A stretch of 16,072 bases of DNA, taken from contig JAQUEZ010000136.1 of assembly GCA_028684915.1 (NCBI GenBank), forward strand, positions 1 to 16,072, written 5' to 3'. This document shows, piece after piece, positions 1,852 to 16,055 of the stretch. The notes under the pieces are model-generated. The model saw only the letters and a program-made list of their open reading frames with translations, was not told the origin of the DNA and searched no databases. A program made the position numbers and the translations under genes. Position 1 is the stretch's first letter. Each line of letters begins with the position of its first letter. Source of the DNA: Desulfobulbus sp. (GTDB lineage Bacteria > Desulfobacterota > Desulfobulbia > Desulfobulbales > Desulfobulbaceae).

Positions 1852-1954
1852 CAGTTCATCCTGGATCAAATTTTTTTCGGGATAATTTTCCTGCGCCAAA
1901 AGTCGAGATACTTCCAACATGGACAGGAGAAATGTGGGCTCTAATTAACGGTTC

Positions 1955-1984: not shown

Positions 1985-2002
1985 AACATTATTCATTATG
2001 TC

Positions 2003-2374
2003 CTATATTTTATCATCATCTCGATGAACTGTTTCGGGAGAAAAGGCAGGCAAACAAACAGCTATATATTCTGCACCATCTTCAGTCGGAGTACTATATT
2101 GTACCCACTCATTTTTATTTATAATAATTGCTTCGCCCGCATGTACTTCAAATTCATTTGATTTAGTTTTGACCTTCAACATTCCTTTTAGTACTACTGT
2201 ATACTCAGCAAATTCTGGTTTTTGGCAAGGTTCAACCCAACCCCCCGGACTAACCATTCGAGCTATACTTAAAACTGACGTTTGAGAGTTAACTAACCCA
2301 ATATATTCTTCAATTATTTTGGGTTTGTTACCTGCTGCTTGAATAATGGTTGGCTTTTTTATTTTAGTAGCCAT
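2003..2374 (-). CDS. Single-domain cupin protein
   Basis: A 123-residue protein with a single cupin beta-barrel. The first motif region reads about PGGWVEPCQKPEFAEYTVVL and the second VHAGEAIIINKNEWVQYSTP. The usual two metal-binding His residues of motif 1 are absent, so a metal enzyme role is doubtful and a ligand-binding or regulatory role is possible. It ends with PAFSPETVHRDD, a tail I associate with small cupin_2 proteins. ATG 2374 is preferred over the in-frame ATG 2380 because AAAGGA then sits 6-8 bases upstream instead of 2. The selO stop is only about 40 bases upstream on the same strand, so the two may be cotranscribed. Substrate and role unknown. Confidence 0.8.
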   Translation of the reverse strand: MATKIKKPTIIQAAGNKPKIIEEYIGLVNSQTSVLSIARMVSPGGWVEPCQKPEFAEYTVVLKGMLKVKTKSNEFEVHAGEAIIINKNEWVQYSTPTEDGAEYIAVCLPAFSPETVHRDDDKI

Positions 2375-2416
2375 TGACATTTCCTTTTATAAAAAGGATT
2401 TCAATTTTATTAAAAA

Positions 2417-4120
2417 TCAAGATGAACAGCTATAGTGCGACACGCCACCAACGTTAAAAAACTCTCTAGGTTTTAGACGATAATATTTATCCTCTACTTC
2501 TTGTGATTGCTCATCGTATGGGTAGCTAAGTATTTCTTGCAACTCTCTAACTAAGGCGTAGTCACCCTGCATGGCTTGTTGGTAGGCGGGGGCAATCAAC
2601 CACTCTCGCCATGTGTATTTTGGGTTAGTCCGTTTCATACTTGCTGATATCTCAGCCAAATTGCCGTCTTTAACGACGAGATCGCGCCAGCTTTTTAGCC
2701 AATATTGCCATTGCTCATCGAGTTGTTGTGAAGTTTTAATGTAGAAGCTCTTTTTCAATGCTGAAACATCCTCTGGTATATGGGATAACTCACGGAAGAA
2801 AATGGTGTAATCCACCTCTGATTGAGTCATTAGCTGCATTAATTTCTTAAATAACTGTGGGTTATATTCAGTCAAGCCAAGTTTGGCCGCCCACATTTTT
2901 TGAAGTTGTTTTTGCATTTCTTCTGCAAAGCCATGGCGCACGTGGTCGAAATGTTCTAAAGCTTCAGTATATTCTGCGAGTAACGGTCTCACAGCTGTCC
3001 AGAACATATGGTAATTCGCTTCCGCTGCGATTGGCTGACTGAAGAATGAAAAGTGTTCGCCGCCGCCAGTCCAAGGTTGATACTCAGGGTCAAATATTTC
3101 ACAGAATCCAAATGGTCCATAGTCGAGGGTAAAGCCGCCAGCGGCGCAATTGTCACTATTATAATTACCCTGGCAGTAACCAACCCTTAGCCAATTGGCC
3201 ACCAGTAAAGTAAGACGCTGGCGAAACAGCTTAGCCAACTCAACCAATTGATCTGCAAAAACAAGATGTTGGTTAATGTCGATTTTGTATTCTCGTTCAA
3301 TTAAATGCGACACAATCATGCGCAACTCTTCAAATGCTCTTGGATGAGCATTGCTGCGGGCGCGGCGGGCAAATAACTCTAGCTGACCAACACGTAAAAA
3401 GGATGGTGCAACGCGAGTTGAAATAGCCACAGGATTGTCCACCAAAATATCAGGATCGGTGGAGTGGGAGTCTTGAGAATACCAAGGCCGGGTAACTGTC
3501 TCAGATTTAGAAACATAGAGTGTTAAAGAGCGGGATGTCGGAACACCTAAAGCCTGCATATATTCTTGAGCTAGAAACTCACGCACACTTGAACGTAGTA
3601 CTGCACGCCCGTCGGCACCACGACAATAAGGTGTTGAGCCGCCACCTTTCAATTGCATTTCCCAGCGCTGCCCATTGAGTATTCCTTCAAATACAGATAT
3701 CGCCCGACCATCGCCATAACCATTACCGGTACCAAATGGACATTGTTGAGTATATTCGGTGCCAAAAATCGACAATGCATAGCCAGTCGCCCAGCCAACC
3801 TGACGCATAGGCTCATGCGCAGCAGAGAGATCACCAGAGAATATCTGGCGAAATTTTGCATTAAGTGCCAGCTCGTCACTCAGCCCAAGTTCATTAAAAA
3901 AAATTCTGCTATGGGTTACATATTCTGGTTCTGCAAGCGGCGTGGGCTTCACAGGTACGAAATGACCAGAAAAAACCTGACGGGCACGGTGGTCATCACC
4001 ATCTTCGGTGGCATCAGGGTCGGCATTCAAGGTATCCATCAGAGAATAATCAGCTAATCGCGCAAACTCATCGAAGGTCGTTACGCAGGGCTCAGCAGAT
4101 GGTTTAGATATATATGGCAT
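2417..4120 (-). CDS. selO: Protein adenylyltransferase SelO (YdiU family), long form
   Basis: SelO is a pseudokinase-fold enzyme that transfers AMP from ATP to hydroxyl groups of target proteins and is tied to redox homeostasis. Visible hallmarks are [16 protein letters not shown] with the ATP-binding Lys, [13 protein letters not shown] with the helix-C Glu, the catalytic-loop region QGNYNSDNC, and LDYGPFGF with the metal-binding Asp. The protein ends in CSS, with Cys third from last, as in E. coli SelO, where this Cys forms a regulatory disulfide. At 567 residues it is longer than E. coli YdiU (478). It carries insertions, for example around [14 protein letters not shown], that fit the longer class. 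I chose ATG 4120 because AAAGGTG lies 9 bases upstream; an in-frame GTG at 4132 overlaps that ribosome site. Neighbouring MsrA and MsrB support an oxidative-stress theme. Confidence 0.95.
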
Positions 4121-4332
4121 TGTTGCAAACACCTTTCGCTAAGGGGATCGCGATTTTTGCGCTTTGTCAGAAGAGATACAGTAGGCACATCAAGTTGGAA
4201 TCAAATTACCTTTTAGAGCAGTTACCTCGTAGTCTCAATCTACCTTACGCTGGCAGGGTTTGAGGCTATTCCTGATTTTCTCTGGCTGAGCCGAGTAAAC
4301 ATTTTTCCAACGAGTCACAACTGACAGGAGTA

Positions 4333-4839
4333 TTATTTATCTGCCCTTTTCGGCAATACCCAGTTCGAGCGCGGGTAGTGACAGGTGTAGCCGCTGGGGA
4401 AACGTTCCAGATAATCCTGATGTTCAGGCTCGGCCTCCCAGAAGTCGCCAACCGGCGCGAGTTCGGTAGTTACTTTTCCCGGCCACAAGTTCGAGGCATT
4501 GACGTCGGTAATCGTGTCGAGCGCCGTTTGCTTCTGGGCGTCATTAACGCAATAAATCGCCGAACGATAAGACGCGCCTCGATCATTACCCTGCCGGTTG
4601 GCGGTGGTGGGGTCGTGTATCTGGAAAAAGAATTCCAAGATTTGGCGATAGGAAATCTCATCAGGGTTAAAGAAGATTTCGATACCTTCGGCGTGAGAAC
4701 CATGATTACGATAAGTGGCGTTGTGCACGTCGCCACCGGTGTATCCAACCCGCGTTTTCTCCACGCCCGGTAGTTTGCGGATCAGATCCTGCATGCCCCA
4801 GAAACAGCCTCCTGCCAAAACTGCACGTTCCTGTGTCAT
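4333..4839 (-). CDS. msrA: Peptide-methionine (S)-S-oxide reductase MsrA
   Basis: MsrA reduces the S epimer of methionine sulfoxide in proteins using a catalytic Cys. The 168-residue protein has the active-site motif GGCFWG at 10-15 with Cys12, followed by [40 protein letters not shown] and [16 protein letters not shown]. All are in the family order and the length is normal. No CxxC or other obvious C-terminal recycling Cys pair follows, so regeneration may rely on one resolving Cys or on external thioredoxin. The start ATG overlaps the msrB stop by one base (TAATG), so translation is probably coupled to msrB. Confidence 0.97.
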
Positions 4840-5285
4840 TACTTGCCCTCCACTTGGTTGATATAAACACCGTAGCCTTCCTCCTCCATATCATCCCGGT
4901 GGATAAAGCGCAGCGAAGCCGAATTGATGCAGTAGCGCAGGCCTCCGCGATCCTGCGGGCCATCCGGGAATACATGACCCAGATGGCTGCCGCCATGAAC
5001 CGAGCGGACCTCAGTGCGGATCATGCCGTGGCTGGTGTCGCGCAATTCATTAATGTACGCTGGTTCAATGGGTTTAGTGAAGCTGGGCCAACCACAGCCC
5101 GATTCGAACTTGTCAGACGATGCAAACAACGGTTCGCCAGACACAATATCTACATAGATGCCAGGCGCGTGATTGTTAAGATACTCGCCTGTCCCTGGAC
5201 GCTCCGTGCCACCTTGCTGGGTTACTCGGTGCTGTTCCGGCGTCAGATTGGCGACGGCGTCTTCAGATTTCTTGTACATCTCCAT
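4839..5285 (-). CDS. msrB: Peptide-methionine (R)-S-oxide reductase MsrB, zinc-less form
   Basis: MsrB reduces the R epimer of methionine sulfoxide and complements MsrA. The 148-residue protein has the SGCGWPSF motif with Cys64, [10 protein letters not shown] (101-110) and the active-site motif RYCINSASL with catalytic Cys119. Cys64 is the likely resolving residue. The two CxxC pairs that bind structural zinc in many MsrB proteins are replaced here (VDIVSGEP near 45-52 and the DGPQDRGG stretch), so this is the zinc-free type. AAGGAGA lies 6 bases before ATG 5285. It is the upstream partner of msrA in a two-gene unit, perhaps led by the zinc-ribbon gene 60 bases upstream. Confidence 0.97.
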
Positions 5286-5345
5286 GAAATTCTCCTTGAG
5301 CGTGCTTGTATAGCATTTGCCTCGAAAACAATATGCCCAACGCTG

Positions 5346-5564
5346 TCAAGGCCGTATCACTTTTTTTGAATCGCACAAATGTCCGGCATCTGGAGCAAGT
5401 CCGCCACAGGTGGCGCAGGTATATTTCATTTCTGGCAAATGTTCTCCACAGACCTGATCAGTGGATGTCGCACACAACTTCCCTTCAAGATCCTCGGTGC
5501 CAGGATTACAGAGCCTATTTGAATGCTCTGAAGTTGCACCGCAGTTCATGCATTTATATGTCAT
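5346..5564 (-). CDS. Small protein with two zinc-ribbon-like Cys clusters
   Basis: A 72-residue protein with a clear internal repeat. The N-terminal half is YKCMNCGATSEHSNRLC and the C-terminal half YTCATCGGLAPDAGHLC, each a CxxC knuckle followed by a further Cys, with more Cys between (KLC, QVC). This predicts two metal-binding ribbons, most likely zinc. AAGGAGG lies 5 bases before ATG 5564. The frame stays open to 5660, but the extra N-terminus has no ribosome site. It sits 60 bases upstream of msrB on the same strand and could belong to the same redox-responsive unit. I do not recognise a named family and propose no reaction. Confidence 0.75.
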   Translation of the reverse strand: MTYKCMNCGATSEHSNRLCNPGTEDLEGKLCATSTDQVCGEHLPEMKYTCATCGGLAPDAGHLCDSKKVIRP

Positions 5565-5660
5565 GGCGTCCTCCTTATCATCTTGACGAATCAAACAAGC
5601 AGCCAGCCACGCTAGCCACCCTAATAGCTCGAAGCTAAGGAAGACGGCATGGCTTGTCAA

Positions 5661-6351
5661 TGTTTGGAAAACCTAAAATTAGAGTCAGGCAGCGGTCGGC
5701 ATAAGTTGGGTTGGGTGTATGGTGGGCGAAAATTTGAGACCGGATCGAGCCCAAAATTTTATCTCTTTATATCGGGGCTATGCATACCGCGAGAGGTTGG
5801 CTAGTCGTTGGGTGAGGCAAGAGAGAAGGTAGAAAACTGACCGCAACTAATCGGAAACACATAAATATCGGCAGGGCTTTCCTTAAATTGCTGGTACTAG
5901 TGCACCAAGGCCGGATGCTCAAGGAAATGATACTGTTTATGCCTGGTTCGGCAGGATGTCGGGCAGGATCCAAGTAGAAGTGGCTTGGGGCTGGTTGAGG
6001 TAAACAGGAGATATCGTAACTTTGAGGGTTTCAATAACCTGCAGGCCATCCCCACTTAGGACACGGGCAATCCAATCCCGTACCTATCCTTTTTAAAGGG
6101 TAGCAAACCGGCCGCTGAATAATGCCGAATATCGGTAATTTGTTTCTACTTACCAACCTTGACGATGCATGCATTGTTGAAAACGACGACTACCAACACG
6201 ATAATCATGAGAATTGCCCATATGCGCGCTTTTGGCTCACTCGATCATGATGGTCACGGTGATAGCCGTCATTGTCTGCGGAAGCATTCGAGAATGACCC
6301 AAAAGTAATTACCGCAATATGGGCAAAGCTACCGGCCAGAAGGACTTGGGA
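5661..6351. other. Intergenic stretch without a recognisable gene
   Basis: About 690 bases with no ORF that combines a ribosome site, reasonable length and recognisable protein sequence. A short minus-strand frame near 6150-6210 encodes a Val/Ile-rich apolar stretch (MIIVLVVVVFNNA) but is too short to claim. The region may hold decayed genes, and its right part supplies the terminator region for the DUF4242 gene. I see no RNA gene or clear mobile element. Confidence 0.4.
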
Positions 6352-6624
6352 TTATTCTGCGCTAGTCGGATCAATAACCGATTTGATTTCTGAAATGCTA
6401 TTGGCTGGAAAACCCCCCTTCTGAGCATGCTCTCGAACGGCCTCTTCACTTGGTGCTATGTATACACAATAGATTTTATTTTCAGTGACATAGCTTTGCA
6501 CCCACTGGATCTGCGGCCCCATTGCATTGAGCACTCCGCATGATTTTTGAGAAATAGCCTTCAGCTCCGATGGTGAAAGCTTTCCGGCTCCTGGAATTTC
6601 TCGTTCGATAACGTATTTTGGCAT
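6352..6624 (-). CDS. DUF4242 family protein
   Basis: A 90-residue protein beginning MPKYVIEREIPGAG. It continues LSPSELKAISQKSCGVL, IQWVQSYVTENKIYCVYIAP, EEAVREHAQKGGFPANSI and a VIDPTSAE tail. This is the typical layout of the DUF4242 (SCO4226-like, small ferredoxin-like fold) family, full length. Family members have been linked to nickel binding, but function in bacteria is largely unknown. AAAGGGGGA lies upstream of ATG 6624. It is monocistronic here. Confidence 0.9.
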   Translation of the reverse strand: MPKYVIEREIPGAGKLSPSELKAISQKSCGVLNAMGPQIQWVQSYVTENKIYCVYIAPSEEAVREHAQKGGFPANSISEIKSVIDPTSAE

Positions 6625-6861: not shown

Positions 6862-7096
6862 CTACCCGGTTCTATAATTCGGCTGAGCATTGATGCCATG
6901 ATCGGAAACCGGCGTCCAATCGCCTGCCTCCGCGCACTTTCCATCCTTCCAGGCATTGAGCAGTTCCACCAGATGATAGGCAACACTCGCTGTCGCCCAA
7001 GCACACCGATCCTAGCGTTTGGGGCTATCCAAGGGCTTGTCGGCGACCGCCATCCACTTCGCCCAACGGCACGTTGGAAAAACTCGCTGGAAATGG
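6862..7096 (-). pseudogene. Possible gene remnant with an in-frame TAG, next to the distal end of array 1
   Basis: Reading leftward from the distal CRISPR repeat, one frame encodes HHFQRVFPTCRWAKWMAVADKPLDSPKR in two pieces of ordinary-looking protein, then TAG at 7012-7014. In the same frame it continues as DRCAWATASVAYHLVELLNAW, KDGKCAEAGDWTPVSDHGINA and QPNYRTG to TAG at 6862-6864. The sequence looks protein-like on both sides of the amber codon, which suggests a gene fragment inactivated by a nonsense change and cut by the array. I do not recognise the family. The stretch 6625-6861 to its left holds nothing else I can name. Confidence 0.3.
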
Positions 7097-7133
7097 TGAA
7101 TCATCCCGTTCACAAATCCGGTCAGTCCCATCC
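7050..7133. repeat. 84-bp block shared with 12130-12213 (copy 1)
   Basis: These 84 bases are identical to 12130-12213. The block contains a CCAACG-GCA-CGTTGG palindrome, a spacer-like stretch and the degenerate last repeat of the array. It marks the leader-distal ends of arrays 1 and 3 as copies of one ancestral array end. Confidence 0.9.
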
Positions 7134-7278
7134 CTGCTTTTGACGAATAGGGCCGGAAGGTTTTTGGGGGTTTTCATCCCGTTCACATATCCGGTCAGTC
7201 CCATCAGAATACGGGTTTGATGATGTGAACTGGGGCTCTTTTGTTTTCATCCCGTTCACAAATCCGGTCAGTCCCATC
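7097..7278 (-). CRISPR. CRISPR array 1: three type B repeats, two spacers
   Basis: Repeats of 36 bases lie at 7097-7132, 7170-7205 and 7243-7278. The plus-strand type B repeat starts GTTTTCATCCCGTTCACAAA and ends ATCCGGTCAGTCCCATC. The leftmost copy is degenerate (TGAA instead of GTTT at its left end) and the middle one has ACATAT for ACAAAT. Spacers are 37 bases each (7133-7169, 7206-7242). Read on the minus strand the repeat ends in GAAAAC, typical of a CRISPR repeat 3' handle. With the degenerate repeat on the left and the leader-like sequence on the right, transcription is leftward. It lies directly downstream of the RT-cas1-cas2-cas2 operon. Confidence 0.95.
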
Positions 7279-7520
7279 ACTACCGTCGCCGCACCCTGAT
7301 TTTCCAGGGGCCTGCTGGGCGGTTTGCGGCGCGGCAGCCTTTCGGCGGTCTGTCCGTGCCGTTTTTTGCAAAAAAAAATCGCATTTTTCCAAATGATTCC
7401 AAAGCGCGGCGCACCATTCACCTCCATTTTTACGCACCTTGTTGATCTTCCGTTTATTGTAAACATTTCACCCTTTTGCGAACCCAAAATCTTGAAGTGC
7501 GCCGCGAAATTTTTTGTACA
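7279..7520 (-). promoter_or_regulatory. CRISPR leader of array 1
   Basis: About 240 bases between the array and the second cas2 stop, homologous to the sequences right of arrays 2 and 3. The 27 bases next to the repeat (7280-7306, starting CTACCGTCGCCGCACC) are invariant in all three copies. Further out, motifs such as TTTCGGCGGTCTG and GCGCGGCGCACCATTCACC are also shared. Relative to leaders 2 and 3 it has many substitutions and a net two-base length change, so it is the most diverged copy. It should hold the pre-crRNA promoter and integration signals. Confidence 0.85.
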
Positions 7521-7539: not shown

Positions 7540-7821
7540 TCACAGCAGATAATAATCAACATCCACTGTTTTTCTCCCCGCTCCATCCACCCGCACTTTA
7601 TGCACATCCTTGGGGCACAGGGGATAATAGCGAACATGGTCTTGTTTAACATCAATAATCCGGGCAATGCGACCTTGCAGTTCCACCAATTCTTCTGCAT
7701 TTAAGAAGCATTCAAACAAACTGCGCTGCACCCGCACCCCGAAGTTTTCCAGCGTATCCGCAACCCGGCGCAGACGTTTTGGCTCACGCACATCAAAACA
7801 GATTGCAAAAAATCCGCTCAT
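7540..7821 (-). CDS. cas2: Cas2, second copy in the adaptation operon
   Basis: Cas2 is the small ferredoxin-fold dimer that, with Cas1, forms the spacer integrase. This 93-residue protein starts MSGFFAICFDVREPKRLRRVA, here as the first beta strand with Asp10, then NFGVRVQRSLFECFL (strand 2 motif), and ends in a beta strand DVDYYLL. YYPLCP near residues 65-70 is typical of Cas2. Its start overlaps the preceding cas2 stop by 4 bases (ATGA), so translation is coupled. It shares the V-R-V-Q-x-S-x-F-E-C-F core with the first Cas2 but is otherwise quite different, so this is not a recent duplication. Leader 1 begins about 20 bases past its stop. Confidence 0.93.
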   Translation of the reverse strand: MSGFFAICFDVREPKRLRRVADTLENFGVRVQRSLFECFLNAEELVELQGRIARIIDVKQDHVRYYPLCPKDVHKVRVDGAGRKTVDVDYYLL

Positions 7822-8108
7822 GCCAGGAAAAATCCCTCATCGCACACCCTGTTTCCTTGCCCTTGGTGCGAGACAGCCTCTTTGCACCAGGCGCAAAGCG
7901 GATACCAGCGGAGGCTGTCTTCCGGGGTGAGCAGTGCTGTTAACTGGAGCCGAAGCGCGGCCTGTTGCGCTTCATCCAGAAAACACTCGAACACGGAATA
8001 CTGCACCCGGACGCCATGATCGTGCAGGATATTCGCGACCTTACGCCGAATGGCATCTTCTTCAATATCGTAGGCGATCATCCAGCAACGGCTCCTCACA
8101 CCACTCAT
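7818..8108 (-). CDS. cas2: Cas2, first copy in the adaptation operon
   Basis: A 96-residue Cas2 with MIAYDIEEDAIRRKVANIL (strand 1, Asp14), HGVRVQYSVFECFL (strand 2) and RWYPLC near 67-72. After this it has an unusual Cys-rich segment (CAWCKEAV) and a C-terminal CDEGFFLA. Together with the RT-Cas1 protein encoded just upstream it should form the integrase complex. The start overlaps the RT-cas1 stop by 4 bases and the stop overlaps the next cas2 start by 4 bases, so all three are translated as one unit. With two different Cas2 proteins available, a Cas2 heterodimer is possible; this is inference. Confidence 0.93.
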   Translation of the reverse strand: MSGVRSRCWMIAYDIEEDAIRRKVANILHDHGVRVQYSVFECFLDEAQQAALRLQLTALLTPEDSLRWYPLCAWCKEAVSHQGQGNRVCDEGFFLA

Positions 8109-10144
8109 CGCAGGATCATGGGCCGATACCGTTCCTGCCGCCCCCGCACCACCGCCGCCAGTTCCCGCACCTGCTGTTCCATGCAGCGACGGTAATCAAG
8201 GTGCAGGCCGCTGACCGGGTGGGTCACCGCCGCATTCATCTTGGCTTCAAAGGCACGAATAAAAACCGTTCGAGCGTTGTCGTGCATGAAACAATGATCG
8301 TTTTCGTCATCGGGAAAGGTGAAATCCTGGGGCTGGACCTTGCCGTTCAAGACCAGGTTCAGCACCACCGCATCAACAACGAGAGACCTAAATTCTTCAA
8401 TCATATCGGATACCAGGGCCGGATGCCCGCTGCGCAGGGGGTGCAGGTAGCCCACATGCGGATTGAGGCCCCGTGCCCGCAACAGGGAATACATGTTGTA
8501 AAAGAGCAGGGTGTAGCCGTAGGAGAGCATGGCGTTGACCGGATCGGTCGGCGGCTGGCGCACACGCCCGCGAAAACACCAGGCAGGCTCGAAAACACCG
8601 GCCAGGGCGGCAAAGTATTTTCGGGCGGCGATGCCTTCAAAACCGCGCAACTGGTCCAGGGTTGTGGCGCTCTCCAGTTGGGCGGCGATGGTTTTCAAGT
8701 CGTCGGCGGCTTGGTGAAAGGCGGAAGTTTCCCGACGACGCGCCGACCGCATCGCCACAACCCGCGCATTTTCGATTTTGCCCCGCACACATTCGCGGGC
8801 CAGCGCCAGGCAAAATGTCGGATCATCGGCGGTGGCAAATTGATCCCGATGCAGCAAGACCGGGTCCGTGGCAAAGGAATCCACCACGCCGTAAAACCTG
8901 CCTTTGCCGGAAAGCAGACAGATAGGGATATTCTCCAGCAGGCAGAAGTGCATGGCCTGGGTGCTGATCTGGGCATTGCCGAACACCATGATCTGATCCA
9001 CCTTGATTGCCGGTATTTCCTGAAGGATTTCGCCTTTTTTTCGCACGACAAACCGCTCGGATTCCTTGCCCAGCATGGTGCCAGGTTCCAGCAGGTACAG
9101 GGTGCGCAAGCGGGGATCGCTGTCGGCGGGGATGTCGATATCGATGTCGTGTTCATCGCTTGCCAGCGCGGCATCGGATAAGGGCGCTGGCGCTGCGGCG
9201 GAAAGGGGCGGCGCAATATTTATTGCGATCCCGTGACGGACAGCATCAGGCAGCAAACCCGGTTGCGCCGGCGCTGCCGTCTCTTTTTCCCGGGTTTTCA
9301 ATACCAGGGTGCGGATAAATTCCACCCCCAAAAAACGAAACCCGGCGTTGAAGTTCACAATCCTGGTTTTGCCGTTATTGATGCGCAGGCGCAAGCTGTC
9401 CAGGACGGTTTCGGTCAGTTCAAGGGCATCCTCGGCCGCATCCTGGCTTTTGCATAACACCAGAAAATCATCGGCAAAGCGTACCAGGCGCAGATTGTTG
9501 GCGAGCAGGACATCGTCGAGATGATCCAGATACAGGTTGGACAAGAGCGGCGAAATGGGGGAACCTTGCGGCACGCCTTGGGTAATCGGGAGCCGCAGGC
9601 CGTCATCGAGCAAGTCTGTTTTGAGCCAGAGCCGGATGAGGTCGAGAATGCGTTGATCTACAACCAGGGTGCGGAGTTCCTGCAACAAGATATCGTGGTC
9701 GATTTCGTCGAAGAAGGCGTGGATGTCGGCGTCAACCACCCAGCAAAAGCCCTCATCGCGCCAGGCGGCCACCCTCCGCACCGCCTGATCGACCGAACGG
9801 CCTTTTCGGTAGGCAAAACTACAATCTTCAAACTCGGCCTCAAAAAGCGGGGTGAGCACCAGGGCGGCGGCGGTTTGCAGCACACGGTCGCGCACCGCTG
9901 GAATCGCCAGGGGGCGTTGGCCGCCGTTTTCCTTGTCGATCCAGGCACGCAATAACGGCAGGGGATGGTAGGAATTGCTGAGAATTTCGTGGCTCAGTGC
10001 AGCCAGGTTGTGTTCCAGCTCGGATGCAAAATCATCAACCGTCTGGCGATCAACTCCGGCACAGCCCTGATTTTCACGGACACGGAGCCAGGCCGCATAA
10101 AAATTTTCCTGACAGACGATCTGTTCGATGCTGTATCGGTTCAT
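8105..10144 (-). CDS. Reverse transcriptase-Cas1 fusion protein
   Basis: A 679-residue fusion that should integrate new spacers and may copy RNA into DNA for that purpose. The RT part covers about 1-280. It has QRPLAIPAVRDRVLQ (76-90), motif A DADIHAFFD (138-146, catalytic Asp140), QGVPQGSPISPLLSNLYLD (189-207), the FADD box (223-226, both Asp present) and FRFLGVEF (269-276). A Pro/Ala and Asp-rich linker spans about 285-345. Cas1 follows from about 346, with catalytic Glu503 (GFEGIAARKYF), His568 (GYLHP) and Asp580 (SDMIEEFR, with nearby Glu583), so both enzymes look intact. There is no Cas6 domain at the N-terminus, unlike the Marinomonas-type Cas6-RT-Cas1. No good ribosome site precedes ATG 10144. 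RT-Cas1 fusions are typical of type III loci, which fits the cmr genes to the right. Confidence 0.97.
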   Translation of the reverse strand: MNRYSIEQIVCQENFYAAWLRVRENQGCAGVDRQTVDDFASELEHNLAALSHEILSNSYHPLPLLRAWIDKENGGQRPLAIPAVRDRVLQTAAALVLTPLFEAEFEDCSFAYRKGRSVDQAVRRVAAWRDEGFCWVVDADIHAFFDEIDHDILLQELRTLVVDQRILDLIRLWLKTDLLDDGLRLPITQGVPQGSPISPLLSNLYLDHLDDVLLANNLRLVRFADDFLVLCKSQDAAEDALELTETVLDSLRLRINNGKTRIVNFNAGFRFLGVEFIRTLVLKTREKETAAPAQPGLLPDAVRHGIAINIAPPLSAAAPAPLSDAALASDEHDIDIDIPADSDPRLRTLYLLEPGTMLGKESERFVVRKKGEILQEIPAIKVDQIMVFGNAQISTQAMHFCLLENIPICLLSGKGRFYGVVDSFATDPVLLHRDQFATADDPTFCLALARECVRGKIENARVVAMRSARRRETSAFHQAADDLKTIAAQLESATTLDQLRGFEGIAARKYFAALAGVFEPAWCFRGRVRQPPTDPVNAMLSYGYTLLFYNMYSLLRARGLNPHVGYLHPLRSGHPALVSDMIEEFRSLVVDAVVLNLVLNGKVQPQDFTFPDDENDHCFMHDNARTVFIRAFEAKMNAAVTHPVSGLHLDYRRCMEQQVRELAAVVRGRQERYRPMILR

Positions 10145-10288
10145 GTGAGGTTGTTATTGCCGTTTTGTTTGATCGTGCCAACGTTCCAGCGCCGGCGGGC
10201 CACTTTGAGCGGTCCAGCGTTTCTCCAGTAATGAACCGCCTGGGTGGGCTTCCGACGTTGGAGCGCGGGAACCATCAGGAGGTTGTTT

Positions 10289-10317
10289 GCAGGGGCGGGT
10301 TTCAACCCTGCTCCTGC
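10289..10317. terminator. Strong hairpin between array 2 and RT-cas1
   Basis: Positions 10289-10317 fold into an 11-bp stem allowing two G-U pairs, built on GCAGGGGCGGG and its partner CCCTGCTCCTGC. It starts 2 bases left of the last repeat of array 2, so a leftward pre-crRNA would run into it before reaching RT-cas1. There is no U-tract. Either it ends or processes the array transcript, or it is a REP-like intergenic repeat. Further REP-like pieces lie at 10176-10190 and 10254-10275 in the same gap. Confidence 0.45.
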
Positions 10318-10318
10318 T

Positions 10319-11300
10319 GTTTTCATCCCGTTCTCATCTATCCGGTAACTGCATCCCTCAAGCAGAACTCGTAAGAAGGTGGTTTCCAAGTTTTCATCCC
10401 GTTCTCATCTATCCGGTCACTGCATCTGCGAGATGAGCGGCATAATCGGCGACGCTCTGATGTTTTCATCCCGTTCACAAATCCGGTCAGCCCCATCATT
10501 ACCATCGGTGTCGTCAAGACCTTGAGCATCAAGTTTTCATCCCGTTCTCATCTATCCGGTCACTGCATCGTCATACGGCACAAGAAGACCAGTTCTAAAA
10601 TTCTTTGTTTTCATCCCGTTCTCAACTATCCGGTCACTGCATCATGAAGCCGCTGCGGGAAGAGTTTAAGGCCCGGTGGTTTTCATCCCGTTCTCATCTA
10701 TCCGGTCACTGCATCTTGGGGCAATGATCTGACCCTGCATAGTCAGGGCACGTTTTCATCCCGTTCTCATCTATCCGGTCACTGCATCATTTCTCATAAA
10801 TGTTTTGATTTTATTGAAAGACTGTTTTCATCCCGTTCTCATCTATCCGGTCACTGCATCTGTGTTGAAGATGGTGAGGAGCTCATTTCAGCAAGGTTTT
10901 CATCCCGTTCTCATCTATCCGGTCACTGCATCATTACCTTTATTAATCTTAACAGGTTGTTATATCAGGTTTTCATCCCGTTCTCATCTATCCGGTCACT
11001 GCATCTCGAGATTGAGTGGGAGGGGCAGAAGATGTTCTATGTGTTTTCATCCCGTTCTCATCTATCCGGTCACTGCATCACAGGAACGCTTGCTATCGGA
11101 ACATACACCCTTTGGTTTTCATCCCGTTCTCATCTATCCGGTCACTGCATCAAATGCGAATAGCTACCGTCCCGTCTTCGGCTGGTGTGTTTTCATCCCG
11201 TTCTCATCTATCCGGTCACTGCATCAGAATGTAGGAGACAGCAGCTGGACAAGGAGGCATTTTGTTTTCATCCCGTTCTCATCTATCCGGTCACTGCATC
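10319..11300 (-). CRISPR. CRISPR array 2: 14 repeats (13 type A, one type B), 13 spacers
   Basis: Repeats start at 10319, 10390, 10462, 10533, 10607, 10679, 10752, 10824, 10896, 10969, 11043, 11115, 11189 and 11264. Type A repeats are 37 bases, starting GTTTTCATCCCGTTCTCATC and ending ATCCGGTCACTGCATC on the plus strand. The third (10462-10497) is instead a 36-base type B repeat like those of array 1, with one extra change. The first has one substitution (GGTAACT) and the fifth another (CTCAACTA); the rest appear uniform. Spacers are 34-38 bases. The leader is on the right, so the left end is oldest and transcription is leftward. Spacer reading frames are discussed in the findings. Confidence 0.98.
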
Positions 11301-11555
11301 CCTACCGTCGCCGCACCCTGATTTTCCAAGGGTTTGCGGGGCGGTTTGCGGCGCGGTAGCCTTTCGGCGGTCTGCCCGCGCCGTCTTGGGCGGAAAAATT
11401 GCATTTTTTCCAATGATTTCAAGGCGCGGCGCACCATTCACCTCCTTTTTTGTTCATCATGCTGATGTTTCATTGTTTATTGAGAATTTGCCATTTTCCG
11501 AATTAAAATTTCTCCAACGTGCCGCAAAACAAACAGGTGCAGCATCAAGCTCAAG
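11301..11555 (-). promoter_or_regulatory. CRISPR leader of array 2
   Basis: About 255 bases between the last repeat and the csx3-like stop codon. It differs from leader 3 at roughly six positions plus a 6-bp insertion near 11550. The repeat-proximal 27 bases (11302-11328) are identical in all three leaders. An inverted repeat GGAAAAA/TTTTTCC lies at about 11393-11411. On the minus strand it also contains an AAGGAGGTGA box directly before ATG 11437. The array promoter should lie in its A/T-rich right half. Confidence 0.88.
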
Positions 11556-11795
11556 CTAGAAAGGGCTGTGATCAAAAACAAGCACATCACCTGTTATTGG
11601 CGAACGATATGAAAGTTTTTTCACCCTACCGTGCAACAGATGCGCGATTCGGAGATACAGCCAGATAGGAGCCTGTCCCGTGAGCACGACATCTTGACCA
11701 TCAGGTACCAAGCTCCGTGCTTGCTGTTCATAGTCCGGTAGACTCTGGAGCTTGGCTTGCCCGGAATAGAAGGTTGAGAGATCAAGTTCTATCAT
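11556..11795 (-). CDS. Csx3-like (Crn3 ring nuclease family) mini-protein, copy 1
   Basis: Csx3/Crn3 proteins degrade cyclic oligoadenylate, the second messenger made by type III Cas10, and switch the response off. This 79-residue protein has DVVLTGQAPIWLYLRIAHLL (35-54). This matches the Csx3 core of a hydrophobic strand, G-x-x-PIWLY and a helix with AH. A Y-x-x-P...VLVFDH strand follows. The DPR motif seen after the helix in characterised Csx3 is replaced (YRSPITGD), and the protein is shorter than the usual 100-plus residues, so enzyme activity is uncertain. ATG 11795 has AGGAGG 6 bases upstream. The frame extends to 11969, but that part is the out-of-frame SAVED-like fragment. It differs from copy 2 at 5 of 79 residues. 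The family call rests on motif memory. Confidence 0.6.
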   Translation of the reverse strand: MIELDLSTFYSGQAKLQSLPDYEQQARSLVPDGQDVVLTGQAPIWLYLRIAHLLHGRVKKLSYRSPITGDVLVFDHSPF

Positions 11796-11805
11796 ACATA
11801 TCCTC

Positions 11806-11937
11806 CTAACGATGAATCGCACCCCAGTTTTCATATCCCTTGTTGAGCTGGTTGTGATGGATAACCACAGGCGCCGCAAAATTAGAAAGATATTCACCAA
11901 CAGCAAGGGCAACAGGCAAAGGGCTTCGCATGAAAAG
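11806..11937 (-). pseudogene. Truncated SAVED-like C-terminal fragment, copy 1
   Basis: The minus-strand frame ending at TAG 11806-11808 encodes TLFMRSPLPVALAVGEYLSN, then FAAPVVIHHNQLNKGYENWG and AIHR. It is nearly identical to residues of the fragment at 12860-13045, but the upstream part is replaced by the inverted-repeat element at 11938. A remaining ATG at 11931 would give only 41 residues. The stop overlaps the ribosome site of the csx3-like gene, as in copy 2. Confidence 0.5.
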
Positions 11938-12129
11938 TGTGGGTTGAAAATAAAGTTGGGAACTTCCAAATAAAGTCGGTAACTATAGAGTTAACTGCTT
12001 GTTTTTACATGCACTGGTTCTAGAAATCGACCTCAAAGTTACCATCTTTATTGAATTTCCTGAAATTCAATTCACGGAACATCAAACACATAAGTGCCTT
12101 TTGGTTTCCAACTTTATTTTCATCCCACA
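11938..12129. mobile_element. 192-bp element with 23-bp terminal inverted repeats (MITE or deleted IS, IS21-like ends)
   Basis: Positions 11937-11959 and 12108-12130 are inverted repeats matching at 22 of 23 bases (GTGTGGG-x-TGAAAATAAAG-TTGG). The ends read TG...CA. Each end carries a second internal copy of an AATAAAG-x-x-GG-x-AAC box: near 11948 and 11968 on the left, and near 12112 and 12046 in reverse on the right. Multiple transposase-binding boxes at each end resemble IS21-family ends. It encodes no transposase. No matching target-site duplication is seen (AAAAG on the left, CCATC on the right), which suggests that a rearrangement followed insertion. Its left end truncates the SAVED-like fragment and its right end abuts the 84-bp shared block. 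Confidence 0.75.
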
Positions 12130-12213
12130 CCATCCACTTCGCCCAACGGCACGTTGGAAAAACTCGCTGGAAATGGTGAATCATCCCGTTCACAAATCCG
12201 GTCAGTCCCATCC
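12130..12213. repeat. 84-bp block shared with 7050-7133 (copy 2)
   Basis: Identical to 7050-7133. It starts immediately at the right end of the 192-bp element and includes the degenerate distal repeat of array 3 plus one base of its first spacer. Confidence 0.9.
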
Positions 12214-12360
12214 TAACGCTCGCCAGTTCATTGTCGATTTCATGAAGAAGGTTTTCATCCCGTTCTCATCTATCCGGTCACTGCATCCGTGCTTGCGAGT
12301 GAGATTGCAGCCTGGGCAAACATGTTTTCATCCCGTTCTCATCTATCCGGTCACTGCATC
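12177..12360 (-). CRISPR. CRISPR array 3: one degenerate type B repeat and two type A repeats, two spacers
   Basis: Repeats lie at 12177-12212 (type B, with the same degenerate TGAA left end as in array 1), 12251-12287 and 12324-12360 (both type A). Spacers are 12213-12250 (38 bases) and 12288-12323 (36 bases). The leader is on the right and transcription is leftward. The leader-distal repeat is type B while the leader-proximal ones are type A. This shows an array end inherited from the array 1 lineage and joined to a type A leader end. Confidence 0.95.
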
Positions 12361-12609
12361 CCTACCGTCGCCGCACCCTGATTTTCCAAGGGTTTGCGGG
12401 ACGGTTTGCGGTGCGGCAGCCTTTCGGCGGTCTGCCCGCGCCGTCTTGGGCGAAAAAATTGCATTTTTTCCAATGATTTCAAGGCGCGGCGCACCATTCA
12501 CCTCCTTTTTTGTTCATCATGCTGATGTTTCATTGTTTATTGAGAATTTGCCATTTTCCGAATTAAAATATCTCCAACGTGCCGCAAAACGAACAGGTGC
12601 AGCATCAAG
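12361..12609 (-). promoter_or_regulatory. CRISPR leader of array 3
   Basis: About 249 bases, nearly identical to leader 2 and clearly homologous to leader 1. The repeat-proximal block 12362-12388 is invariant. It starts 1 base after the last repeat and ends at the stop codon of csx3-like copy 2, so there is no intergenic gap beyond the leader itself. It also carries the minus-strand AAGGAGGTGA-ATG (ATG 12497). Confidence 0.88.
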
Positions 12610-12849
12610 CTAAAAAGGGTTGTGATCAAAAACAAGCACATCGCCTGTTATTGGCGAACGATATGAAAGTTGTTTCACCCTACCGTGCAACAGATGCGCG
12701 ATTCGGAGATACAGCCAGATAGGAGCCTGTCCCGTGAGCACGACATCTTCGCCATCAGGCACCAAACTCTGGGCTTGCTGTTCATAGTCAGGTAGACTCT
12801 GGAGCTTGGCTTGCCCGGAATAGAAGGTTGAGAGATCAAGTATTATCAT
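12610..12849 (-). CDS. Csx3-like (Crn3 ring nuclease family) mini-protein, copy 2
   Basis: The 79-residue paralogue of the protein at 11556-11795. It differs at residues 3 (I for E), 27 (Q for R), 34 (E for Q), 60 (Q for K) and 77 (N for S). The G-Q-A-P-I-W-L-Y core and the terminal VLVFDH strand are unchanged, so both copies appear to be kept under constraint. ATG 12849 has AGGAGG 6 bases upstream, overlapping the TAG of the preceding SAVED-like frame. This couples it to the cmr operon direction. In type III systems such a protein would tune cyclic-oligoadenylate levels. The loss of the usual DPR residues could mean binding without cleavage. Confidence 0.6.
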   Translation of the reverse strand: MIILDLSTFYSGQAKLQSLPDYEQQAQSLVPDGEDVVLTGQAPIWLYLRIAHLLHGRVKQLSYRSPITGDVLVFDHNPF

Positions 12850-12859
12850 GCATATCCTC

Positions 12860-13045
12860 CTAACGATGAATCGCCCCCCAGTTTTCATAGGCCTTGTTGG
12901 GCTGATTATGATGGATAACCACAGGAGCCGCAAAATTAGAAAGATATTCGCCTACAGCAAGGGTAACAGGCATAGGGCCACGTATAAAAAGGTGAACTTT
13001 ATCTGTGCCGTAATGGACCGATCCACTCACTTTTTCACCAAGCAC
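12860..13045 (-). CDS. Short SAVED-like fragment or small protein
   Basis: A 61-residue frame starting at GTG 13045 (a TAG lies five codons upstream, so it cannot be longer). It contains KVHLFIRGPMPVTLAVGEYL, then SNFAAPVVIHHNQ and a Tyr-containing tail ending in AIHR. The order strand (VHLFI), G-P, apolar helix with LAVG, strand (APVVIHH), then Tyr resembles the C-terminal end of SAVED domains, which sense cyclic nucleotides. A whole SAVED domain is far longer, so this is either a remnant or a stand-alone half-domain working with the csx3-like protein. Sequence conservation in both tandem copies and the good ribosome site within its stop for the next gene argue for a retained unit. No clear ribosome site precedes its own start. 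Assignment is tentative. Confidence 0.35.
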   Translation of the reverse strand: MLGEKVSGSVHYGTDKVHLFIRGPMPVTLAVGEYLSNFAAPVVIHHNQPNKAYENWGAIHR

Positions 13046-13119
13046 CTTTGTTTTTGCCTATCTTGTTGATTTTTTGTAGATATTATCATGATTGCGCCAA
13101 CGTCCGAGCGTGGGAACTA

Positions 13120-13548
13120 TCACTTGGCTGTTGCGCTATTCTGGCACCAATCCTGAATTTTCTCTTCATTAAACTGAGACCACTCTTCTTTATTGCAAGA
13201 AATTTTAAGTACGGCGTCTTCCTTGCCGGCGCTAATCTCATGTATTTGGCTGAAAAAATGAGAACCATTCAAATATCCAATCGAAAAACGCTCTTTAGGG
13301 CTTTTCATCGGTATCATTCCCAAATGTCCTAGAACTTCTGCCCTTGTCAAATCAACTCGAAGTATCGAACCAGGCAATTGAAAGGAATTATTTTCGCATT
13401 GTAAAACAACAGACACTTTTTTCATTTTACGCTGTTTCTCTTGTTGTAATTCATTTTCAATTTTCATGGCTTTATAAAAAGTAAAACCAGTAAGAATTGT
13501 TCCAAAAATACTTGCAAGTCCTGATGTCAGGTTAAATGCGTTATCCAT
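13120..13548 (-). CDS. Membrane-anchored protein in the type III-B operon, unknown family
   Basis: A 142-residue protein with one hydrophobic helix at about 7-27 (LTSGLASIFGTILTGFTFY), then a charged helical stretch at about 28-44 (IENELQQEKQRKMKK) and a soluble domain at 45-142. That domain contains DLTRAEVLGHLGMIP (66-80), a basic loop KSPKERFSIGYL and a C-terminal EEWSQFNEEK helix. ATG 13548 is used because GAGGT lies 5 bases upstream; an in-frame ATG at 13569 overlaps the cmr6 end and lacks a site. It begins 10 bases after the cmr6 stop, so it is almost certainly cotranscribed with cmr4-6. Being tail-to-membrane and in a type III operon, it could be an effector or a signalling partner. 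I do not recognise the family, so that role is inference. Confidence 0.75.
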   Translation of the reverse strand: MDNAFNLTSGLASIFGTILTGFTFYKAMKIENELQQEKQRKMKKVSVVLQCENNSFQLPGSILRVDLTRAEVLGHLGMIPMKSPKERFSIGYLNGSHFFSQIHEISAGKEDAVLKISCNKEEWSQFNEEKIQDWCQNSATAK

Positions 13549-13558
13549 AATTACCTCA

Positions 13559-14743
13559 TTAAATATCATTCAATTGTTTAGCCAAGGCTCTTGCTCGGTC
13601 GTTCTGGTAATACAATTTTTTCTTTCCTTGTGGCCTGTCTGGTTTTTTAATAATTCCAGGATAAAATCCATCAAGGGTATTCGAAAATATCTCGACGCAC
13701 TTTTCACGAACTTCAACATTACTTTCTTGAACAATGTTTGGCAGCCAGCGCTGCGCAGCATCATAAAAATCATTACGATTTTGACATGTTGCCCATGCGT
13801 TTTCTTCCGACTCTTTATAGATTTCTGCCGCAAGCCCGGTGTAGCCTTTTGCTGTGAGTTCCTTTTCAATGTGTTCCCGCTGGCGTTGGCTTTCCTGTTC
13901 TGCTTGCTTTTGTTGCGCTTGTTTTTCCCGCCGTTTTTTTGAGTCCTTGCTTTCCTGCATCAAGCCATATCCTACAGCCGTTTTGCCACCCGCGCCGATG
14001 GTCTCCAGGGCGTTTTTCAATAATTCCAAACCGGTTTCCACATCTTTGCGAGCATCTTCCTTCATTTCGTATGCCCCAGGCCGAGTGGCAAGCGAAAACA
14101 AAAACGTTTGCCCTGGTGCAACCGTCAAAAAAAAGACTGGCACCGGGTCGCAATAATCCGCAGGTGGGTTTTTCGGGTCTGCATAATATTCCTGATAATG
14201 GGGATTGAGGATATCCAGTTCCAGTTGCGGGTATTTTTCCGGCAGGGCATCAAAAACGATCAGGCTGCCAGCGGAATTCTCTGAACCAAAGAGCTTGTCT
14301 ATTTGTTCTTGCTGCTCTTGTTGCCATTCTTTCCCCCAGGCCCGCAGCAGACCTTTCACCGATGAGCCGGGGAGATAGGGCGCGCCTAAGGTTGGGTGCC
14401 AGATAAAGCCGGTTTCGTACGGGTGGCTTGCACCCAGGCCGGAAACAAAACGCCAGCTTGTTTGCATGGAAAGGGATGCGCCGTGCAGTGTTGTTTCCAC
14501 AAGATTACGCTGGCGGTTGCAGGCATTTTGCAGGGCATGATCACTCTGATTGTCCGATTTTTTCACAATAGCTTCGAAAAATTCTTTCTTGGCATTATCC
14601 GGTAAACCCCAAACGTCTTTTTGTTCTTTGTATTTATCACTCCAGCCTGGCGGATATTTGTTAAAAATCAAGCCAAGATTAGCTGTGGGATTTTGGGAAA
14701 GTGTTTCCCAATCAATCTTTTTCCCGTCGTACAAAGGAATCAT
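13559..14743 (-). CDS. cmr6: Type III-B RAMP protein Cmr6 with C-terminal extension
   Basis: Cmr6 is a RAMP (RRM-fold) subunit that caps the Cmr4/Cmr5 filament at the 3' end of the crRNA. The 394-residue protein has SGLGASHPYETGFIWHPTLG (101-120), LPGSSVKGLLRAWG (124-137) as the conserved RAMP helix, and a glycine-rich GAGGKTAVGYG loop (250-260). The core ends there. About 130 extra residues follow: a Lys/Gln/Glu-rich predicted coiled coil at about 266-297 and a helical C-terminal domain rich in charged and aromatic residues. Typical Cmr6 proteins stop soon after the glycine loop, so this extension is unusual. ATG 14743 shares one base with the cmr5 stop (TGATG); a GTG one codon earlier is possible. 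Confidence 0.93.
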   Translation of the reverse strand: MIPLYDGKKIDWETLSQNPTANLGLIFNKYPPGWSDKYKEQKDVWGLPDNAKKEFFEAIVKKSDNQSDHALQNACNRQRNLVETTLHGASLSMQTSWRFVSGLGASHPYETGFIWHPTLGAPYLPGSSVKGLLRAWGKEWQQEQQEQIDKLFGSENSAGSLIVFDALPEKYPQLELDILNPHYQEYYADPKNPPADYCDPVPVFFLTVAPGQTFLFSLATRPGAYEMKEDARKDVETGLELLKNALETIGAGGKTAVGYGLMQESKDSKKRREKQAQQKQAEQESQRQREHIEKELTAKGYTGLAAEIYKESEENAWATCQNRNDFYDAAQRWLPNIVQESNVEVREKCVEIFSNTLDGFYPGIIKKPDRPQGKKKLYYQNDRARALAKQLNDI

Positions 14744-15171
14744 CACTGCCCGCCTTTATCATCAGCAGCAACATCAGCATTATCTAGCCAGGCATCCGCA
14801 AATTTTTTCATCCAGTTGAGCAGGGCAACCGCCTCCTGTTCCGCCCGCATGTATTGATTCCGGTCGCCGCTCATGATTTGCCCAATTAAATTTGTTGCCG
14901 TATAAACTCGGCAAGGTCGATCATCTTGCTCTGTACCACAAAGCCAGTCCTGAAGTTGTTTATACAATCTATCAGATGGTTTATTGCTGTCTCCCCCGGC
15001 ATCAGCCAATAAAAAGGCCAGAGTTTGCCCCAATCCGTTTTGCAGAATCCGCACCGGTGTTTTGCGGATGTGAGTCAGCATTTTGTCTTTCTCTTTTTTG
15101 TCTTTCTTTTTCTCTTCTTCTATAAACTTCATGGCAAAGACCGCCCGTTTTTGATCGTTTGTCCGTGCCAT
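14743..15171 (-). CDS. cmr5: Type III-B small subunit Cmr5
   Basis: Cmr5 is the small helical subunit of the Cmr interference complex, lining the crRNA-target duplex next to Cmr4. The 142-residue protein starts MARTNDQKRAVFAMKFIEEE. It has a strongly charged Lys-rich stretch (KKKDKKEKDKM), then THIRKTPVRILQNGLGQTLA with the conserved family motif of Pro...Gly-Leu...aliphatic, and a C-terminal helix EAVALLNWMKKFADAW. Size and position between cmr4 and cmr6 fit. I use ATG 15171 with GGAGG about 9 bases upstream. A longer frame to 15207 overlaps cmr4 without a ribosome site. Only 2 bases separate it from the cmr4 stop. Confidence 0.93.
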   Translation of the reverse strand: MARTNDQKRAVFAMKFIEEEKKKDKKEKDKMLTHIRKTPVRILQNGLGQTLAFLLADAGGDSNKPSDRLYKQLQDWLCGTEQDDRPCRVYTATNLIGQIMSGDRNQYMRAEQEAVALLNWMKKFADAWLDNADVAADDKGGQ

Positions 15172-15173
15172 AG

Positions 15174-16055
15174 TTATACGCCTCCATTCACTTTTATGCA
15201 GCACCATCCTTGACCCACGGTTTCATTGCCGCCGATTTGCAGGTAGTTATCGTTCGCCAACGCTTCCAAATGCTGTGCCACATGATCAGCCCCGCCGACC
15301 TGACCGTTCATCCTGGGGGCATGGCATACCGCCAGCCCATAGAGGATTGTTTCCGGAGGCAGAGTTTCCTCCACCCACATGTTGCCGTCTCCGCCGGTGG
15401 TGGTTTTTTGGTCGTTGAGCTTGATTCGGGTGGCAATCTGGGTGGCATGGTTCACCATATAGGTAAAATCTTCGTCGGGCACGATAACCAGACGGGCTGG
15501 GTCAAACTCAGCGTCTTTATGGAGTATTTTTTGTATAGAGCTCTGGACGTTGGTATCGCCAGCCAGATCTTTTATTTTGAATTGGATCTCTTCCAGCACC
15601 AAAGGATCTGTAAAGCCACTGCCGGAAAGCACCAGGACGGTTTCCTTTTCTCCCTGTATCGCTGCTGTTTTCCAATCCGGCTCCGTCATGCCGATCAAGC
15701 GAGTATCGCGCTGCAATCGTTTTAAAATCATCGGGCAGGTCGCCCAGACAAAGACTCCTTGCAGGCTGCGGACAGGGAAGGCAAGAATTCGGGCATCGGT
15801 TAAAGAGAGGGCCCCGGCACTGGGTTGTGCATCGGAACCGCCAAACAGGGTTGTTATCTTAGGATCTTTTTTGCCCCACAGTCGTTCCGCCTTGTCCCGC
15901 AAACTGCCCTTGAAGCCGGACGCGGCAAACATGGGAAAGCCGGTGTGCACTTCCCGTTGAATCGGTAGATCAACCACTCCGGTGGTCTGCCCCGTGCCAG
16001 GATGCAGGAAGGTTATGGCCTGCAAGGTAATCATTCTTGAAACAGGTTTTGACAT
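15174..16055 (-). CDS. cmr4: Type III-B backbone RAMP protein Cmr4 (target RNA cleavage)
   Basis: Cmr4 forms the backbone of the type III-B complex and cuts target RNA every 6 bases. The 293-residue protein has FLHPGTGQTTGVVDLPIQRE (16-35). Asp29 lies at the place of the catalytic Asp of characterised Cmr4 proteins (Asp26 in Pyrococcus), so RNA cleavage should be intact. GFPMFAASGFKGSLRDKAE (39-57) is the RAMP helix motif and GGNETVGQGWCCIKV the C-terminal Gly-rich strand. AAAAGGAGG sits 7 bases before ATG 16055, which lies 17 bases from the right edge. The strong ribosome site inside the operon fits its high copy number in the complex. Upstream cmr genes, including cas10/cmr2, are expected beyond the edge. 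Confidence 0.96.
   Translation of the reverse strand: MSKPVSRMITLQAITFLHPGTGQTTGVVDLPIQREVHTGFPMFAASGFKGSLRDKAERLWGKKDPKITTLFGGSDAQPSAGALSLTDARILAFPVRSLQGVFVWATCPMILKRLQRDTRLIGMTEPDWKTAAIQGEKETVLVLSGSGFTDPLVLEEIQFKIKDLAGDTNVQSSIQKILHKDAEFDPARLVIVPDEDFTYMVNHATQIATRIKLNDQKTTTGGDGNMWVEETLPPETILYGLAVCHAPRMNGQVGGADHVAQHLEALANDNYLQIGGNETVGQGWCCIKVNGGV

Follow-up and report, generated by a model that had tools for sequence, protein, structure and literature searches.

The contig JAQUEZ010000136.1 of Desulfobulbus sp., which is considered here over its whole length of 16,072 bp (the window), in all likelihood carries a type III-B (Cmr) locus of clustered regularly interspaced short palindromic repeats (CRISPR). 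The locus is probably functional, with adaptation by an integrase in which a fusion of reverse transcriptase (RT) and Cas1 is joined by two different Cas2 subunits. RT-Cas1 systems are already known as a means for bacteria to keep a record of RNA. Every gene of the locus lies on the minus strand, as do the arrays and their leaders. Read along that strand, the order is cmr4-cmr5-cmr6-csx23-SAVED remnant-csx3 copy 2-leader C/array C-SAVED remnant-csx3 copy 1-leader A/array A (ending at 10319) and then RT-Cas1-cas2a-cas2b-leader B/array B (ending at 7097). The genes were named from Pfam, NCBIfam and PADLOC profiles, and the arrays were located by a scan for two repeat types. Of specialist interest are the Cas2a/Cas2b pair, the antisense phage spacers, the combination of csx23 with two csx3 copies and an unnamed effector family found in relatives.

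In the mechanism proposed for this locus, RT-Cas1, Cas2a and Cas2b would insert fragments of an invader's DNA, or fragments of RNA that the RT has copied, beside three related leaders. A Cas6 encoded off the contig would cut the precursor of the CRISPR RNAs (crRNAs), which within the Cmr complex would pair with phage transcripts. Cas10, also off the contig, would make cyclic tetra-adenylate (cA4), thereby activating Csx23. The role of Csx3 would be to bind this signal or to clear it. The integration and targeting steps are backed by evidence in the sequence and the remaining steps we infer from the named families. RNA-derived acquisition, cA4 signalling, any ring-nuclease activity of Csx3 and the presence of Cas10 and Cas6 next door are predictions of this kind.

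What is it that equips this locus for adaptation? At its centre is the fusion protein, with its two Cas2 partners encoded directly behind it:

8105-10144, minus strand: RT-Cas1 fusion, 679 residues (Pfam RVT_1 and Cas_Cas1; NCBIfam; PDB 7kft)
7818-8108, minus strand: cas2a (Pfam Cas2, 5.6e-21; cas2a clade of 10 rows, 97/97)
7540-7821, minus strand: cas2b (Pfam Cas2, 5.9e-21; cas2b clade of 10 rows, 98/97)

The initial annotation had described the fusion as having intact RT and Cas1 residues and as lacking an N-terminal Cas6 domain, and both descriptions hold. Pfam places RVT_1 at residues 69-276 (2.4e-38) and Cas_Cas1 at 349-633 (2.9e-92), with no third Pfam domain; aligned with the solved Cas6-RT-Cas1 7kft, the window protein matches from residue 343 of the chain onward, from which it follows that it is without the Cas6 part. 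D140, the F223-A-D225-D226 motif, E503, H568 and D580 are all in place; among the 120 matches listed (window included) D140, D225, E503, H568 and D580 are invariant and position 226 is D in 119. A phylogeny groups the protein with other RT-Cas1 proteins, in a 46-row clade with a Shimodaira-Hasegawa-like approximate likelihood ratio test (SH-aLRT) value of 98, within a tree that drew on 39 of the 119 other matches listed and had a long-branched outgroup. The family is large: of 7,998 scored candidates, 2,009 have E values of 1e-3 or better. At E 1e-60 a match is present in 10 of 369 genomes from the class of locus L001 and in 15 of 395 from the phylum of L002 (related loci are cited by such numbers), counts that include intron-type RTs and Cas6-RT-Cas1. 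A search with RT-Cas1 against viral contigs gave no match. The gene is broken in L006, and in L004 (Methylovulum psychrotolerans) it is split by an inserted open reading frame (ORF) at 11943-12881 that looks transposase-like by eye.

The pairing of two cas2 genes behind RT-Cas1 is shared by the window and nine of the ten fused relatives with at least 50% identity, namely L001, L002, L003, L004, L006, L039, L040, L041 and L042 (L041 and L042 being from one genome); the tenth, L005, is an RT-Cas1 fragment only, without cas2. When the cas2 profile was run over 24 sequences, comprising the window and 23 loci, the 13 more distant or split loci yielded one cas2 in 12 cases and none in L044, whose contig ends after RT-Cas1. 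In L045, L052 and the fetched piece of L013 little more than 200-350 bases remain beyond the sole cas2, so that another might lie past the end of the sequence. Two of the 13 are carried by named plasmids of Alphaproteobacteria, whose annotation lists one cas2 each; L050, with a separate RT that is 51% identical, also has one. In the Cas2 tree, which left out L013 and two short extra profile matches in L039, the first Cas2s form one clade and the second Cas2s another, such that the pair is old rather than the product of a recent duplication. RT-Cas1-cas2a-cas2b is a conserved operon. The effectors that stand beside the pair vary, being Cmr in L001 and L039, Csm5-like in L004 and fused Cas7 proteins in L002 and L006, which agrees with the published view of RT-Cas1 as a module passed from one type III system to another (PMC5513706).

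How does this module compare with those already described? Six relatives of Cas6-RT-Cas1 size (open frames of 881-1028 residues) show 29-36% identity to the window protein, and one cas2 is found in five of them and none in L044, with its contig ending. By gene content rather than sequence, the window resembles the type III-D system of Vibrio vulnificus YJ016, which also combines an RT-Cas1 lacking Cas6 with two different Cas2 proteins; the effector is III-D there and Cmr here. In that system both Cas2 proteins are reportedly needed and RNA-derived spacers are said to be acquired, in work by Gonzalez-Delgado et al. from 2019. Marinomonas mediterranea MMB-1 shares with the window a III-B effector and an RT-Cas1 integrase, one that is reported to take spacers from RNA, but it is placed in branch 1, where the proteins have a fused Cas6 (PMC5513706).

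The effector side of the locus is represented by three genes:

15174-16055, minus strand: cmr4, Cas7-type backbone subunit (NCBIfam TIGR02580, 221.4 bits against a cut-off of 87; PADLOC Cmr4, 1.7e-66)
14743-15207, minus strand: cmr5, small subunit (NCBIfam TIGR01881, 69.6 bits against 27.9)
13559-14746, minus strand: cmr6 (NCBIfam TIGR01898, 146.1 bits against 51.1, over residues 93-263 of 395)

All three score above their NCBIfam equivalog cut-offs, and the earlier placing of RT-Cas1 beside cmr4-cmr5-cmr6 is borne out as a Cmr-type (III-B-like) locus. The contig stops at 16,072, just beyond cmr4. Two Cmr-type relatives that include the part upstream of cmr4, L001 and L039, have their genes arranged as cas6-cmr1-cas10-cmr3-cmr4-cmr5-cmr6-(accessory genes)-RT-Cas1-cas2a-cas2b, and on this gene order cas6 and cas10 would sit just past the right edge of the window; that Cas6 is encoded elsewhere is, by analogy, a reasonable supposition. 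The cas10 of L001 matches the Cas10 and Cas10b profiles and that of L039 is 60% identical to it. With the signature Cas10 out of view beyond the contig end, the locus might instead be of type III-C or a hybrid. This assignment is very unlikely, as the cmr4, cmr5 and cmr6 products match III-B equivalogs and both Cmr-type relatives carry cas10; moreover, III-C loci are described as being without an active cyclase and as having very few ring nucleases (PMC12409355), whereas Csx23 and Csx3 imply signalling. The C-terminus of Cmr6 extends some 130 residues past the family match, and the Csm5-like protein of L004 ends in a segment similar to this extension (35% over 117 residues). On that likeness the extension is possibly a module common to subunits of different effector types.

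The memory itself is distributed over three arrays with related leaders:

10319-11300, minus strand: CRISPR array A, 14 repeats (13 A-type and one B-type at 10462-10497) and 13 spacers
12177-12360, minus strand: CRISPR array C, two A-type repeats with a truncated B-type end repeat, and 2 spacers
7097-7278, minus strand: CRISPR array B, 3 B-type repeats, the last truncated, and 2 spacers
11301-11530, minus strand: leader of array A (leader alignment; 98% identity to the leader C stretch)
12361-12590, minus strand: leader of array C (in a 292-nt stretch 98% identical to that of array A)
7279-7509, minus strand: leader of array B (71-87% identical to leaders A and C)
7050-7133, no strand assigned: 84-bp array end (100% identical to 12130-12213, the end of array C)

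Together the three arrays hold 17 spacers. The initial annotation had also counted three arrays, of which array B falls to the left of 7540, where it had the locus begin. As to genes, the main parts of its list stand; it had overlooked the second cas2, csx23, both csx3 copies and the SAVED remnants, along with a 675-bp duplication that includes a leader and the mixing of two repeat types. The A repeat is 37 nt long and the B repeat 36 nt, and these share with the repeats of relatives a core in which CCGG is followed, after a variable stretch of six to ten bases, by AACGGG and an A-rich end. The leader block GCCGCAAA (GCCGAAAA in L004) recurs in the window, L001, L002, L004, L006 and L039, as does a looser block ending in TGA; the leader of L041 was too short and was left out of this comparison. 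In L004 and L006 arrays flank the adaptation genes on both sides, and the leaders agree to 92% in L004 and to 89% in L006. One adaptation machine most likely serves both the A and B repeat types. The two copies of the tandem duplicate, which are 93.9% identical, each comprise a SAVED remnant, csx3, leader and first repeat and lie at 11263-11937 and 12323-12991. The mixed repeat types, the shared 84-bp ends and this duplicate together indicate that the arrays have been rearranged by recombination, and the 84 shared bases suggest that there has been exchange between arrays B and C. This shared end consists of a truncated B repeat and a flank with the inverted repeat CCAACG / CGTTGG.

A single contig resembling a double-stranded DNA (dsDNA) phage is matched by two spacers that come from different arrays, both of them oriented so as to pair with messenger RNA (mRNA):

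12213-12250, minus strand: spacer sp2 of array C (35 of 38 positions matching phage contig IMGVR_UViG_3300004151_000008)
11226-11263, minus strand: spacer sp3 of array A, leader-proximal (33 of 38 positions matching IMGVR_UViG_3300004151_000008)

Against this phage record of 79,747 bp the E values are 6.9e-13 for sp2 and 7.4e-8 for sp3, and 20 shufflings of each gave at best 23 matches in the 39,800 bases of the record that were fetched. In those same bases none of the remaining 15 spacers exceeded 23 matches, a level within the range of shuffled spacers (maxima 21 to 26). Against the whole record array B gave nothing, and arrays A and C gave the sp3 and sp2 sites only. The contig carries PHROGs for primase, ribonucleotide reductase and peptidase as well as, read by eye, DNA polymerase I-like and nuclease genes. 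It is on account of these genes, and of a primase 25-31% identical to those of Pseudomonas phage ZQG1, Roseobacter phage RDJL Phi 1 and Bordetella phages, that it looks like a dsDNA phage. The crRNAs of sp2 and sp3 are both antisense to phage ORFs, with 12 of 12 whole-codon residues in agreement in each case, and at the two sites 0 of 8 and 3 of 8 positions of the target flank could base-pair with the crRNA tag. Antisense orientation together with little tag pairing is what a type III system needs. Antisense in both of two spacers would arise one time in four by chance and carries no statistic. The two targeted ORFs (949-2337 and 6568-7371 in L057, the phage record) match the same PHROG, phrog_22518, of unknown function, and both contain repeated segments of the EVGKxY type.

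Wider searches added no further targets. Exact IMG/VR scans with the cores of 7 of the 17 spacers matched for one of the seven, sp2, the core of sp3 being missed due to its mismatches. No match came from blastn of array A against phages and plasmids, from blastn of arrays B and C against phages only, or from the arrays of L001 and L002 against phages. The spacer matching that the initial annotation had called for has thus yielded two spacers for one dsDNA-phage-like contig and none for plasmids (array A). Few targets for RT-Cas1-associated spacers, with a single match for those of Arthrospira, are reported in a published survey (PMC5513706).

Do these targets mean that RT-Cas1 now acquires from DNA only, with the RT kept for some other step such as the filling or tailing of prespacer ends? 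The finding of both identified targets in one dsDNA-phage-like contig would sit well with this, as would the report that RNA protospacers receive short 3'-DNA tails from RT-Cas1/Cas2 (PMC11014452). However, the catalytic aspartates of the RT are nearly as strictly conserved as the Cas1 residues among the 120 matches listed, phage mRNA would have been an equally good source for both spacers, and their orientation fits the targeting of mRNA. DNA-only acquisition is regarded as rather doubtful, and the preferred account is of an integrase that may be able to use RNA as well as DNA.

A more specific proposal, advanced as a speculation of low probability, is that Cas2a and Cas2b form an obligate heterodimer that would make the RT-Cas1 integrase asymmetric, thereby allowing one-way insertion of complementary DNA such that the crRNA is antisense to the source transcript. 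The constant order of cas2a then cas2b, the separate clades of the two proteins, a repeat core and leader blocks held in common, and the antisense direction of both spacers are compatible with this idea. If true, it would explain how an RNA-targeting type III system gets useful guides from RNA, and the conserved Cas2a/Cas2b pair offers a testable case for an integrase of this type.

Between the effector and adaptation genes lies a set of genes associated with signalling:

13120-13569, minus strand: csx23, predicted cA4-activated effector (PADLOC Csx23, 1.1e-25; PDB 8qjk, 1.3e-05)
12860-13045, minus strand: SAVED C-terminal remnant, 61 codons (PADLOC SAVED4-SAVED_TM, 2.4e-08, profile positions 226-270 of 278; Pfam SAVED, 20.2 against 26.2)
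12610-12849, minus strand: csx3 copy 2, 79 residues (containing ORF: Pfam Cas_csx3, 26.5 against 21; NCBIfam, 25.7 against 55.4)
11806-11937, minus strand: second SAVED remnant, in the tandem duplicate (675-bp duplicate, 93.9% identity)
11556-11795, minus strand: csx3 copy 1, 79 residues (containing ORF: Pfam Cas_csx3, 27.3 against 21; NCBIfam, 26.3 against 55.4)

A csx23 accompanied by a duplicated csx3 without two catalytic residues represents an unusual accessory module. In Csx23, R76, R94 and F95 align with the cA4-binding R95, R110 and F111 of Vibrio cholerae Csx23, the numbering of the latter being derived from spacing in the alignment. A single-sequence model gives a long helix at residues 3-46 with a mean predicted local distance difference test score (pLDDT) of 45.5. 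A database search with the protein, of a kind that needs shared 5-residue words, returned only the window protein itself, and one survey records Csx23 in 4 of 1,113 loci (PMC11229360). The III-B system of the V. cholerae prophage has in common with the window a Csx23 with the cA4-binding Arg/Arg/Phe and a Cmr effector, whereas the window in addition has two csx3 genes and RT-Cas1, and the term 'reverse transcriptase' is absent from the main text of the paper that describes the Vibrio system (PMC11014256). Vibrio Csx23 systems are described as exceptions to having an off-switch (PMC12409355).

With regard to Csx3, the likeness is to Archaeoglobus fulgidus Crn3/Csx3 (AF1864), with which the window proteins share a matching core and three conserved histidines, the equivalents of H57, H60 and H80 being kept in the alignment. 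They differ in length (79 residues as against a 110-residue chain) and at D69 and R71, of which the first is reported as essential and the second as important in the A. fulgidus protein (PMC7371418). A nearby Arg in a YRxP motif and, except in L001, the Asp of a GD motif could stand in for these two residues. The Csx3 of L050 is outside the alignment and its residues were read by eye.

In all three csx3-bearing relatives (L001, L004 and L050) the gene immediately ahead of csx3 encodes a protein with a hydrophobic segment. This protein belongs to an unnamed family in L001 and L004 and is a TM-CARF protein in L050, such that the candidate effectors differ in the slot ahead of csx3; in L039 that slot holds a membrane protein, without csx3. 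A protein of L047 that is related to the one in L001 (23% over 134 residues, 2e-08) is fused to a Csx16 domain, and this fusion speaks for the csx3 slot having an off-switch role. The ring-nuclease activity of Csx16 is reported as confirmed (PMC12409355). In the window, the slot before csx3 held a SAVED gene, of which just the end is left, with csx23 adjoining. A complete SAVED sensor with an effector domain is not found there, both copies being the C-terminal end only.

A number of observations weigh against the proposed reading, and these include the absence of cas10, cmr1, cmr3 and cas6 from the contig. Both Csx3 copies are above the Pfam cut-off but below the NCBIfam equivalog cut-off, and neither has D69 or R71 at the aligned places, as is also the case in L001 and L004; ring-nuclease activity is doubtful for these reasons. 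The hydropathy of Csx23 reaches a maximum of 1.26, with no hydrophobic segment above the threshold of 1.6, and its N-terminal transmembrane helix does not stand out by this measure. The spacer matches do not separate RNA from DNA as their source, and 15 of the 17 spacers are without a target, 10 of these having been compared with one phage record only, outside the IMG/VR scan. Could the locus then be a decaying remnant, in which adaptation and memory stay and signalling is being lost? The beheading of SAVED in both copies, the missing catalytic residues of Csx3, the fragmentation of the arrays and the truncated end repeats common to arrays B and C would all be in keeping with decay. Yet cmr4, cmr5, cmr6, csx23, RT-Cas1 and both cas2 genes are open, RT-Cas1 and Csx23 keep their active-site or ligand residues, and the spacer nearest the leader in array A has its match in a phage contig. 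Furthermore, as the D69/R71 difference recurs in L001 and L004, it marks a Csx3 subfamily rather than decay in the window. Decay is accordingly judged improbable, and a working type III-B locus is the reading that is retained.

An Rfam scan of the window gave no match at the gathering threshold. To the left of the arrays, at 1-6624, lie genes that by eye encode an SRAP-like protein, a short-chain dehydrogenase, a cupin, a SelO-like protein, MsrA and MsrB, and also a SCO4226-like protein (Pfam, 6.6e-30). An SRAP-like gene is found near the locus in L042 as well.

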